From Nosocomiicoccus ampullae (GTDB lineage Bacteria; Bacillota; Bacilli; Staphylococcales; Salinicoccaceae): 64,000 bases of DNA. Below the pieces are notes generated by a model. The model was not told where the DNA came from and did not search any database. It worked only from the letters and a program-made list of their open reading frames with translations. Each line of letters opens with the position of its first letter. Position 1 is the first letter of the stretch. Shown in pieces: positions 43,110 to 49,366 of the stretch. The translations under genes were made by a program, and so were the position numbers. The DNA lies in NCBI RefSeq assembly GCF_019357495.1, contig NZ_CP079110.1:1240001-1304000 (forward strand), read 5' to 3'.

Positions 43110-43139
43110 AAAAATAAACTGAAGTTGCCTTCAGTTTAT
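43110..43139 (-). terminator. Terminator overlapping the OsmC stop
   Basis: Eleven-base arms (43114-43124 and 43129-43139) with loop TTGC contain the stop codon of the OsmC gene. U-rich tail on the minus strand. The next gene starts at 43105, immediately after. Confidence 0.8.
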
Positions 43140-44861: not shown

Positions 44862-44890
44862 TTGACTATAAAATACACTGCCATTATAAT
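44862..44890 (+). promoter_or_regulatory. Promoter of the LLM oxidoreductase/gcvH-L operon
   Basis: TTGACT (44862-44867), 17-base spacer and TATAAT (44885-44890) on the plus strand, about 40 bases before the gene. It has a perfect -10 and a near-perfect -35. Confidence 0.7.
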
Positions 44891-44927: not shown

Positions 44928-45929
44928 TTGGTTATTATCGTTAAAGTAAGTATTCTCGATTATGCAGTCGTTGACGAAGGTAAAGATGGAGTAACAGCAG
45001 TAAACGAAACAGTCGAGCTTGTAAAACACGCAGAACAATTAAACTTTAGTCGTTTCTTTGTCGCAGAGCATCACAATGTTAAAGCATTCGCAAGCAGTAG
45101 TCCAGAGTTACTAATTATGAAGTTACTCGGTGAAACTAAAACGATAAACATCGGTTCAGCTGGTGTTATGATTCCGCACTATGCACCGTTAAAAATCGCA
45201 GAAAATTTTAGTATGCTTGAAGCACTCTACCCTGGTCGTGTAGACTTAGGTGTTGGAAATACACTCGGAACAACTATTGTTCAAAAGGCTATGGAATCTT
45301 CAAGAGAAAACTTTGACTATGAATCGCATCTAAAAGAAGTTCAGGATTTACTTTCTAACGATTCAAAAGAGAATATTACAGTCCATCCACTCATAAAAAC
45401 ACCTCCGAACATGTGGGTGTTAAGTACAAGCCAACGCTCAGCAAAAATGGCAGCAAAATTAGGTATGGGATATATTTTTGGTTTCTTCCCTTATGCATCA
45501 ACAGATAAAACGTTAGCAGCAAAACATGCGATTGAAATTTACAAGAATGAATTTAAACCTTCAAAAACAAATGACACAGCACACGCAGCAATTGCAGTGT
45601 TTGTCGTTATCGCAGATACTACAGAAGAAGCCAATCGTTTAACGAAATCATTAGATGTATGGTTACTCGGTAAAAATAATTTTAACGAATTTAGTCATTT
45701 TCCATCAGTAGAAACTGCTGAGAATTATAATTTTACGCAGACAGATTTAAGACGTATAAAGAGTAATCGTACACGTATGGTCATCGGTAACAAAACAACG
45801 ATTAAAAAAGAACTTACTGACTTGGCAGAAGAATTAAATGCCGATGAACTAGTCGTCATTCCACTTATGCCAGAATTTAAAAATAGAAAACATGCGTTAA
45901 CACTATTAAGTGAAGCATTTGATTTATAA
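44928..45929 (+). CDS. LLM class flavin-dependent oxidoreductase, MsnO8 type
   Basis: Luciferase-like monooxygenase of about 333 residues, with VAEHHNVKAFASSSPELL near residue 42, GSAGVMIPHYAPLK, RVDLGVGNTLG and FLGFF-type barrel strands. It probably oxidises an unknown substrate with reduced flavin. The start is unclear: the frame's TTG at 44928 directly abuts AAGGA. The nearest codons at good spacing are ATT and ATC; homologues begin with the equivalent of VKVSILDY. It is the first gene of the SirTM cluster and is followed by gcvH-L at 18 bases. Confidence 0.88.
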   Translation: MVIIVKVSILDYAVVDEGKDGVTAVNETVELVKHAEQLNFSRFFVAEHHNVKAFASSSPELLIMKLLGETKTINIGSAGVMIPHYAPLKIAENFSMLEALYPGRVDLGVGNTLGTTIVQKAMESSRENFDYESHLKEVQDLLSNDSKENITVHPLIKTPPNMWVLSTSQRSAKMAAKLGMGYIFGFFPYASTDKTLAAKHAIEIYKNEFKPSKTNDTAHAAIAVFVVIADTTEEANRLTKSLDVWLLGKNNFNEFSHFPSVETAENYNFTQTDLRRIKSNRTRMVIGNKTTIKKELTDLAEELNADELVVIPLMPEFKNRKHALTLLSEAFDL

Positions 45930-45947: not shown

Positions 45948-46283
45948 ATGAGAAGAACAGCAAACTATTTATGGATTGAAAAAAAAGGTGAAGAATATAC
46001 ACTTATTTTAACACCTGAACTACAAGATGACATTGGAACTGTTGGTTATGTTCAATTTAGTAAAGACGACGAAGTGAAAAAAGATGATTCACTTCTAGAA
46101 TTAGAAGGCTCAAAAACTGTACTCGATTTAATGTCACCACTTAACGGTACAGTTATTGAAAGAAACACTAAAGCAATCGACAACCCTGAAATCTTAAACT
46201 CTTCAGATCCAGAGGAAAGCTGGGTAGTAAAACTAACAAACGTTGATGAAGGCGAATTTAACGCTCTAGACGAAGCAAAATAA
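45948..46283 (+). CDS. GcvH-like lipoyl-carrier protein (GcvH-L)
   Basis: A 111-residue lipoyl domain that resembles the glycine cleavage H protein but is not part of a gcv operon. The lipoyl lysine is Lys56 in LEGSKTV. Asp27 and Asp28 follow TPEL, and an Asp near this place is the reported ADP-ribosylation site in the S. aureus homologue. I use the ATG at 45948, nine bases after GGAAGGA; a TTG at 45939 is closer to that site. In S. aureus it is lipoylated by LplA2 and ADP-ribosylated by SirTM. Confidence 0.93.
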   Translation: MRRTANYLWIEKKGEEYTLILTPELQDDIGTVGYVQFSKDDEVKKDDSLLELEGSKTVLDLMSPLNGTVIERNTKAIDNPEILNSSDPEESWVVKLTNVDEGEFNALDEAK

Positions 46284-46291
46284 TATGAACT

Positions 46292-46324
46292 AAGCTTACA
46301 ATTTTAAAATTGTAAGCTTTTTTA
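46292..46324 (+). terminator. Strong internal terminator between gcvH-L and the macrodomain gene
   Basis: A 28-base perfect palindrome (46292-46319, arms of 14) is followed by T runs. It looks like a Rho-independent terminator within the cluster. The downstream genes may depend on read-through, antitermination or their own promoter. Confidence 0.82.
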
Positions 46325-46346
46325 AAGCGAGAAAGGCTGGAGTCAC

Positions 46347-47117
46347 GTGAATTTAAAAGAAAACACAAAAGATTTAATCACATATCTACAAAATGAAGCA
46401 CATATAACGAATACACTACCAACTAACATCGATCATGCATTTAATATGTACCGTGATCTCGTCAATGTGCGTAATCCTAAATTATTACCCGAGAAATATT
46501 TAAATATTCAAGACGAATTTTTAAAAGAATATAACCATGATATCGTCAACTTTAACGATCTATCACCTATAAAAAATAATTCACAGCTTTATTTATTTCA
46601 AGGTGACATAACTACGTTAAAAATTGATGGGATTGTAAATGCTGCAAACTCTGATTTACTCGGTTGTTTTATCAAAGGGCACCACTGCATCGATAATATT
46701 ATCCATACGAAAGCAGGCGTACAACTACGCTACGAATGCTCTAAAATTATGGAGGTACAAGGTAGAAAAGAAGCTGTCGGTCGTGCGAAGATTACAGACG
46801 CGTATAACTTACCGTCAAAATACGTCATACACACTGTCGGTCCTTATGTGAAAAGTAAACAAGCATCGAATATGCAAAAAGATTTACTCAAAAAATGTTA
46901 TACGAGTGTATTAAAATTAGCTGATGAAAACAATTTAAAGTCAATCGCTTTTTGTAGTATATCTACAGGAGTCTTCGGATTTCCAAAAAAAGAAGCGGCA
47001 ACAATCGCAACAAATGCAGTTAAAGAATATTTAGAAGATACACACTCTACTATAAATGTTGTGTTTAACGTATTTTCTGATGAAGATTATGAAATATATA
47101 ATCGTATTTTAAACTAG
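46347..47117 (+). CDS. Zinc-containing macrodomain protein, MacroD type of the SirTM operon
   Basis: A 256-residue protein with an N-terminal helical extension of about 80 residues and a macrodomain. It has the ADP-ribose motif GIVNAANSDLLG and the zinc-type insertion CFIKGHHCID, then YVIHTVGP and SIAFCSISTGVFGFPKK. Zinc macrodomains of this class remove ADP-ribose from GcvH-L in staphylococci and streptococci. GTG start with GGAG upstream. It lies 12 bases before the sirtuin gene. Confidence 0.92.
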   Translation: MNLKENTKDLITYLQNEAHITNTLPTNIDHAFNMYRDLVNVRNPKLLPEKYLNIQDEFLKEYNHDIVNFNDLSPIKNNSQLYLFQGDITTLKIDGIVNAANSDLLGCFIKGHHCIDNIIHTKAGVQLRYECSKIMEVQGRKEAVGRAKITDAYNLPSKYVIHTVGPYVKSKQASNMQKDLLKKCYTSVLKLADENNLKSIAFCSISTGVFGFPKKEAATIATNAVKEYLEDTHSTINVVFNVFSDEDYEIYNRILN

Positions 47118-47129
47118 AAAGGGATTACT

Positions 47130-48020
47130 ATGTCTACTTGGAATATTAAAACAAATACTTCAGATGAGGAAACACTCGCTGAACTGATTAAAGAAGCAGA
47201 TGCTGTTGTCGTTGGTATTGGTGCTGGAATGTCAGCATCTGATGGATTTACTTATGTTGGAGATCGTTTTAAGAAAAACTTCCCAGACTTTATCGAAAAA
47301 TATGGATTTTTCGATATGCTACAAGCAAGCCTCTTTGATTTCCCAACAACAGAAGAATATTGGGCATTTCAAAGTCGTTTCGTAAAATTAAACTATCTCG
47401 ACCAACCTGTCGGTAAATCATACACTTTGTTACGAGAAATGTTAGAAGAAAAACCATATTTCGTCATTACAACAAACGCTGATAATGCATTTTACAAAGC
47501 AGATTATAATATGGATAAAGTATTCTACTATCAAGGTGAATACGCACTGATGCAGTGCAGTCAATTCTGTCATAACGACACATATCGTGACGATGAAATG
47601 ATGTTAAAAATGGTCGAACAACAAGAGGATATGAAAGTTCCGTACGAGCTCATTCCATTTTGTCCTAAATGTAACGCTAAAATGGAAATTAATAAGCGTA
47701 ACGCTGAAAAAGGAATGGTCGAAAGCCCTCATTTCTTTGAACAAAAAGAGAGATACGAAACATTTTTAAACGAGCATCAAACCGGGAAAGTAATCTACTT
47801 AGAAATCGGCGTCGGCTATACGACACCTCAGTTTATTAAACATCCGTTCTGGAGATTCACTAGAAATAACCCCGATGCTAAGTTCGTTACTATGAACCAA
47901 AAAGCTTACCGAATTCCTAATGATATAAAACCACACTCTATTACTTTAACTGACGATATTCAAAAAACGATCGTCGGTGCAAATCAAATTTTAAAGGAGC
48001 AAAATTATGTATCTAATTGA
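47130..48020 (+). CDS. SirTM-class sirtuin (protein ADP-ribosyltransferase)
   Basis: A 296-residue class M sirtuin. It has the Rossmann [11 protein letters not shown] near residue 32, ITTNADNAF near residue 118, and [14 protein letters not shown], where the usual catalytic His is Gln. This is the known hallmark of SirTM: it ADP-ribosylates GcvH-L and does not deacylate. Zinc Cys pairs are CSQFC and CPKC. It overlaps lplA2 by 14 bases, which fits a coupled lipoylation/ADP-ribosylation pathway in redox defence. Confidence 0.93.
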
Positions 48021-49029
48021 ACCATTTCGTAACGGAGAATATGTAGACGACGGTGCCTACGCACTTGCAATGCAAGTATATGCAAACGAAAATATTTTCT
48101 TAGATGAAGGAATCATCTTTCCTTATTACTGCAAACCTAAAATAGAGATTGGACGTTTCCAAAACGCACGTGCAGAAGTTAATCAAGATTATTTAGATGA
48201 AAATGGAATTATCGTTGTACGACGTGATACTGGAGGTGGCGCGGTACTTGTTGATGAAGGTGCAGTCAACGTTTGTTTCTTAATTCCTGAAGAAAGTGGT
48301 CTATATGGTAACTACAAAATGATGTACGAACCAGTGATTCAAGCACTGAAAAATTTAGGCGTTAAAAATGTTGAACAAAGTGGACGTAACGACCTACTCA
48401 TCGACGGTAAAAAAGTATCAGGTGCTGCGATGACAAAAGCACACGGTCGTGTCTATGGTGGTTTCTCATTACTGTTAGATATCCACCCTGAACGTATGCT
48501 TGAATCATTAAACCCAAATCAAAAGAAAATCGAGTCTAAAGGGATTAAATCAGTCAGAAGTCGTGTAACGAGTATTCGTGAACATTTAAAACCAGAGCTT
48601 CAAGATATTACAACAGATGAATTTAAAGATTTAATTATTAAAGAATTACTCGATATTACGTCAGTTGATGACGCAAAACGTTATGAATTTACCGATGAAG
48701 ACTGGAAAAACATCGACAAACTCGTCGACGAGAAATACAAAAATTGGGATTGGAACTATGGGAATTCACCAAGCTATAGTTACCAAAGAGATGGTCGTAC
48801 CACAGCGGGAACAGTTGATATTCACTTAGAAATTGAAGAAGGACGTATTGAAAAATGCCATATTTATGGAGACTTCTTCGGCCAAGGTGAAATTACTGAC
48901 GTAAGTAATCATTTAATTGGTACAAGAGTAAAACGTGAAGACTTACTTGAAAGACTTTCTGAAATCGATCTTAATTATTACTTCGGTAATATTACTAAAG
49001 AAGAACTCACTGATTTAATTTTAAGCTAA
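48007..49029 (+). CDS. lplA2: Lipoate-protein ligase LplA2
   Basis: A 340-residue ligase with an N-terminal catalytic domain: [18 protein letters not shown] near residue 77 and [16 protein letters not shown] with the catalytic lysine. The C-terminal lipoate-ligase domain follows. It is expected to attach lipoate to GcvH-L. It overlaps the sirtuin gene and ends in a terminator. The S. aureus cluster has the same ligase as its last gene. Confidence 0.94.
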
Positions 49030-49041
49030 TTGAATATAAGA

Positions 49042-49076
49042 AAAGACGACTGCGATTATTATTCGCGGTCGTCTTT
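49042..49076. terminator. Terminator between lplA2 and the small membrane protein gene
   Basis: Arms of 14 pairs (49042-49055 and 49063-49076, one G-U) with loop TTATTAT. It overlaps the stop of the convergent gene. Short T-run on the right. Confidence 0.82.
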
Positions 49077-49280
49077 CATTTCTTCAACGCTCGGACGGTG
49101 TTTTCTATATGAGAGTAATAGTAATGTAAAAATAATAAATAGTACAATTAGTAATCCGAATATAAGTACATAGCTCAGTGGGTTCTCTTGAGTAATTGCT
49201 CCAGTTACTGAAAAGATTGTACCACCTGTAAACAATGCACCTATAAATGCATATACAAATACTTGCCAAGTTTTCATCAT
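49059..49280 (-). CDS. Small membrane protein, 73 residues, unknown
   Basis: Two hydrophobic helices (about residues 5-27 and 34-58), then a basic-to-acidic tail, RKHRPSVEEMKDDRE. I use the ATG at 49280, with AGGAG upstream; the frame continues to 49310 without a site. It is convergent with lplA2 and separate from the met operon. I do not recognise a family; a role in membrane stress is only a guess. Confidence 0.7.
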   Translation of the reverse strand: MMKTWQVFVYAFIGALFTGGTIFSVTGAITQENPLSYVLIFGLLIVLFIIFTLLLLSYRKHRPSVEEMKDDRE

Positions 49281-49366
49281 AAGATATCTCCTACCTCTTA
49301 TTAATTCCAATGTAACATGACTATCGTATCACTTTACATGCATTTTTGAATATTTCGTTACATTTA

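Follow-up and report, generated by a model that had tools for sequence, protein, structure and literature searches.

Does the palindrome between gcvH-L, which encodes a lipoyl carrier, and the genes of the modifying enzymes (macro, sirTM and lplA2) divide what is otherwise one operon? The Staphylococcus aureus genes had been taken as one operon in the original prediction, and two reports agree. In these, a 4 kb sirTM operon transcript was detected by Northern blot (PMC11257911), and the extended SirTM operon was described as one operon (PMC4518038). The S. aureus operon has the genes of the locus studied here, with LLM, gcvH-L, macro, sirTM and lplA2 in it and OYE nearby.

We first describe the locus in the window, the whole stretch of 64,000 nucleotides that was analysed. 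On its plus strand, LLM comes first and encodes a luciferase-like monooxygenase (44928-45929, exact start uncertain; Pfam PF00296, E 1.1e-28). It is followed by gcvH-L (45948-46283, plus strand, with ATG 45948 taken as the start; Pfam GCV_H, E 1.1e-18), whose identity to gcvH-L in related clusters ranges from 98 to 49%. The gene for the SirTM-linked macrodomain protein, macro, has a GTG start (46347-47117, plus strand; Pfam PF01661, E 1.5e-39). The gene for the macrodomain-linked sirtuin, sirTM (47130-48020, plus strand), was assigned by gene context and conservation with related clusters, and its product matched no Pfam family at E 0.001. The lipoate-protein ligase gene lplA2 is the last (48007-49029, plus strand; Pfam PF21948, E 6.3e-56, and PF10437, E 1.9e-28). 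The genes gcvH-L, macro, sirTM and lplA2 are adjacent on one strand, as in an extended SirTM operon. At the operon end, a terminator-like hairpin with 14 pairs, 7 of them G-C (49042-49076, plus strand), overlaps the 3' end of a small converging ORF (49059-49310). The minus-strand neighbours were an OYE-type oxidoreductase and an OsmC protein by Pfam.

A perfect 28-base palindrome and a U-run had been claimed between gcvH-L and macro-sirTM-lplA2, and both are present. The palindrome, AAGCTTACAATTTTAAAATTGTAAGCTT, lies at 46292-46319 on the plus strand, starts 8 bases past the gcvH-L stop codon and would fold into an RNA hairpin of 12 pairs with a 4-base loop. The T-run, corresponding to the U-tract of the putative terminator, consists of six T at 46318-46323 (plus strand), of which 46318 and 46319 also belong to the palindrome; base 46324, at which the predicted feature ended, is an A. 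In this position, the terminator divides LLM and gcvH-L from macro, sirTM and lplA2, with LLM on the carrier's side. A simple terminator scanner flagged the palindrome on the minus strand only, because it counts T only past the whole stem. The RNA fold of 46284-46346 reached -15.5 kcal/mol, whereas shuffles gave -8.7 (sd 2.7; z -2.54), and 3 of 200 shuffles were equally good. When the 63-base gap was shuffled 100 times, none of the shuffles reached the observed stability of hairpin plus T-run.

Comparison of the palindrome in related genomes had been proposed as a check. Each gcvH-L/macro gap was scored for a hairpin with a T-run immediately 3' of it, with a cut-off of -8 kcal/mol. The element was found in 3/3 genomes of the window genus (g1), 6/6 of g2 (Lacicoccus/Salinicoccus-named strains) and 8/8 of g6 (Jeotgalicoccus), that is, in 17/17. 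With L045, a ninth g6 genome split between contigs (G029), it was found in 18/18 junctions from three genera, always with the T-run 3' of the hairpin. L045 replaces L006 and L077 (contig end), neither of which contains the gap, and L001, L002, L033 and L179 were left out as repeats of the window's own locus. The shuffle and arm tests covered 17 of the 18 junctions (L045 omitted). In 17/17 the distance from the hairpin end to the start codon of macro was 19 to 32 bases. The other gaps of the same loci had no terminator site (0/17 for LLM/gcvH-L, 0/17 for macro/sirTM and 0/16 for sirTM/lplA2).

Covariation was examined in 16 of the 18 junctions (L004 and L045 omitted). Paired cells amounted to 94.2%, and 10 of 18 pairs had changed on both sides, where shuffles gave 3.9 (0/500 as high), in a kind of count that shared ancestry inflates. 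The double changes included U-A to C-G and A-U to G-C, and the signal was lost when the partner was slid by 1-3 columns. Further pair types were no higher than in shuffles (102/500 as high), and one upper-stem pair was unpaired in 6 of the 16 sequences. Since changes on both sides were seen in 10 of the 18 base pairs, the RNA hairpin is probably under selection. Taken with the conserved T-run, these results suggest that an intrinsic terminator separating the carrier from its modifying enzymes is very probably real.

Staphylococcus differs at this junction. Hairpin plus T-run was absent from 32/32 Staphylococcus gcvH-L/macro junctions. These represent every genome, of the 84 searched, whose macro match reached E 1e-60, and S. 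aureus itself was not identified among them. In these genomes gcvH-L and macro adjoin and nearly overlap, with gaps such as TAAATGA; in L141 a weak site of -6.1 kcal/mol, below the cut-off, lies inside the macro start. The element was also absent from both cluster-bearing genomes of g4, a genus of the same family as the window. Because these two groups lack it, the SirTM system works without the terminator.

A class-wide sample of 398 genomes gave 22 matches, and a genome was counted only if its gcvH-L lies upstream of macro. At the -8 kcal/mol cut-off, a hairpin with T-run was present in L122 (Aerococcus suis), L125 (Ruoffia) and 7 of 18 Bacillaceae-like junctions. We considered a single ancient element across Bacilli and rejected it: the sequences differ, many junctions are without one, and common descent is not claimed. 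Some hairpins outside the three genera may have arisen separately as breaks of a similar sort, for which the evidence is too thin to make a claim. As a separate observation, long hairpins running from near GACCTATTC to near AATAGGTCT recur with variable T-runs in the gcvH-L/macro gaps of the Bacillaceae-like loci L189-L194, and the hairpin stretch of L189 had matches at E below 0.01 only at the macro locus.

The terminator had been called strong, and this part of the original prediction was not borne out. The 26-base hairpin of the window has 3 G-C pairs and a stability of -11.1 kcal/mol. Among the 26 intergenic terminator-like sites of the 64-kb window that reach -10 kcal/mol, it ranks 25th. 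The hairpins of the relatives are more stable, ranging from -16.1 to -22.1 kcal/mol in g2 and g6, with L045 at -23.3, and in the 14 g2 and g6 junctions measured the 5' arm has between 6 and 9 G or C. Including the gcvH-L/macro gap, 4/13 co-directional gaps of 25-99 bases in the window have terminator-like hairpins, and the terminator is ordinary in kind for this genome. At 43114-43139, a hairpin with T-run of -12.4 kcal/mol was observed in a 30-base gap between co-directional minus-strand genes, OsmC-like and ABC ATPase-like.

How the genes past the hairpin are supplied depends on where promoters lie. The probable sole promoter of the operon is TTGACT-17-TATAAT (44862-44890, plus strand), with 11 of 12 consensus matches. 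A site with TTGACG-17-TATAAT, also 11/12, was found at the equivalent place before LLM in 4/4 other loci examined (L056-L059), and this site is the only strong promoter-like site common to the genera. From the gcvH-L start to the macro start, promoter-like matches were only weak (9-10 of 12) and common to at most 4 of 17 loci, and an internal promoter for macro-sirTM-lplA2 was rejected on these grounds. Single or few genomes have such 9 to 10 of 12 matches scattered within gcvH-L, and in L010 a 10/12 match lies over the terminator. It had been stated that no good promoter is visible in the 30 bases 3' of the palindrome; 23 bases separate the T-run end from the macro GTG (46347), which leaves no room for one. 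Because of this short distance and the lack of a shared promoter, macro, sirTM and lplA2 most likely depend on read-through.

These results point to a leaky intra-operon intrinsic terminator, which would probably make LLM and GcvH-L more abundant than the macrodomain protein, SirTM and LplA2. The operon would be driven from the promoter before LLM and would contain an intrinsic (Rho-independent) terminator inside it. RNA polymerase would transcribe LLM and gcvH-L, and a fraction of the polymerases would stop at the hairpin and U-run. The remaining polymerases would read through into macro, sirTM and lplA2, which appear to lack separate promoters. The terminator would thus set an expression step, with the carrier GcvH-L (and LLM) above the modifying enzymes. 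We infer termination in the cell, leakiness and a role of the step in stoichiometry. The modest stem is consistent with leakiness, and read-through in the window genus could be nearly complete, given only 3 G-C pairs. An excess of carrier over its modifying enzymes, as originally suggested, stands as the best reading of a hairpin and T-run conserved in 18/18 junctions, although not as the effect of a strong terminator.

The same element might instead be a conditional terminator that lets more polymerases pass in response to a signal such as oxidative stress, and the modifying enzymes would then be produced when required. This could occur through an antitermination factor, through altered NusA/NusG-dependent termination or through a ribosome that completes gcvH-L behind the polymerase. 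The scored hairpin begins 9 bases past the gcvH-L stop in the window genus, a distance at which a terminating ribosome could interfere with it. However, the distance from the stop codon to the scored hairpin varies from 9 to 29 bases across junctions, and therefore ribosome coupling is not a conserved design. In the window's hairpin the terminal pairs are weak A-U pairs and the U-run is interrupted, and a study of Bacillus subtilis intrinsic terminators ties both features to NusG dependence (PMC8060035). In S. aureus, the macro protein increased more than GcvH-L on internalization, according to PMC11257911, but the Staphylococcus junctions examined have no terminator. An antitermination signal, which had been raised earlier, has found no support so far: in 17/17 genomes the 5' arm paired no better than chance with the upstream 150 bases, with at least 24 of 100 upstream shuffles as good in each. 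No Rfam family reached the gathering score either, and the sub-threshold hits included none at the palindrome. Protein-based antitermination or NusA/NusG effects may act here. Overall, we consider conditional termination rather unlikely. A bolder reading goes further: oxidative or lipoate-related stress would increase read-through and so turn on the ADP-ribosylation writer, the eraser and the lipoyl ligase over a standing carrier pool, and this conserved, signal-dependent valve would replace the tight gcvH-L/macro coupling of Staphylococcus. We regard it as unlikely.

Alternatively, the hairpin could be an RNA processing or stability element. It would then shield the 3' end of gcvH-L mRNA that had been cleaved or terminated, more than it halts polymerase, with a similar outcome of more carrier RNA. 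Hairpins with a poor T-run or none were seen by eye in the same gap of some Bacillaceae-like loci, for example L190 and L195, and would fit such a role. In contrast, the T-run accompanies the hairpin in all junctions of g1, g2 and g6, and it is needed by a terminator and not by a processing hairpin, which makes this explanation hardly probable. Perfect palindromes are typical of operators too, but a chance palindrome, a mobile repeat or a binding site for a DNA regulator is very improbable: the palindrome is single-copy in the 1.55 Mb genome (search allowing up to 3 mismatches), strong matches of the related hairpin (E below 1e-10) in 11 Jeotgalicoccus and Lacicoccus-group genomes fall at this locus only, with the others weak (E 0.001 or above), and the compensatory changes and one-sided T-run point to RNA.

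A leaky terminator within an operon is a known kind of control. Intra-operon terminators linked to differential gene expression include the ioTTSs described in 38% of Methanococcus maripaludis operons (PMC10450193). Like these, the window's terminator lies between co-directional genes, and read-through would supply the downstream genes; it differs in being a prediction from sequence and conservation and in belonging to a bacterial extended SirTM operon. The papers searched contained no report of a terminator at this place in a SirTM operon, and this instance of the control would be new.

Other arrangements of SirTM genes were also observed. Three genomes of family f4 and genus g9 (L025, 1-3864; L026; L027) have sirTM immediately after LLM, with overlapping ORFs in L025, and lplA2 next; neither gcvH-L nor macro was matched at E 0.01 in these loci. 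SirTM is thus present there without its usual substrate and eraser nearby. A second SirTM, about 50% identical, was found in 7 of 9 g6 (Jeotgalicoccus-group) genomes; in L032 it adjoins an lplA2-like gene, and the locus had no macro match.

If the proposed role of the terminator is true, two sister lineages would run one and the same reversible ADP-ribosylation module from differently organised transcripts. The carrier and the enzymes would be joined in Staphylococcus, whereas the relatives of the window would hold the carrier in excess. This would provide a testable handle on whether the carrier-to-enzyme ratio matters in SirTM signalling, and it would caution against assuming one uniform SirTM operon transcript across the order.
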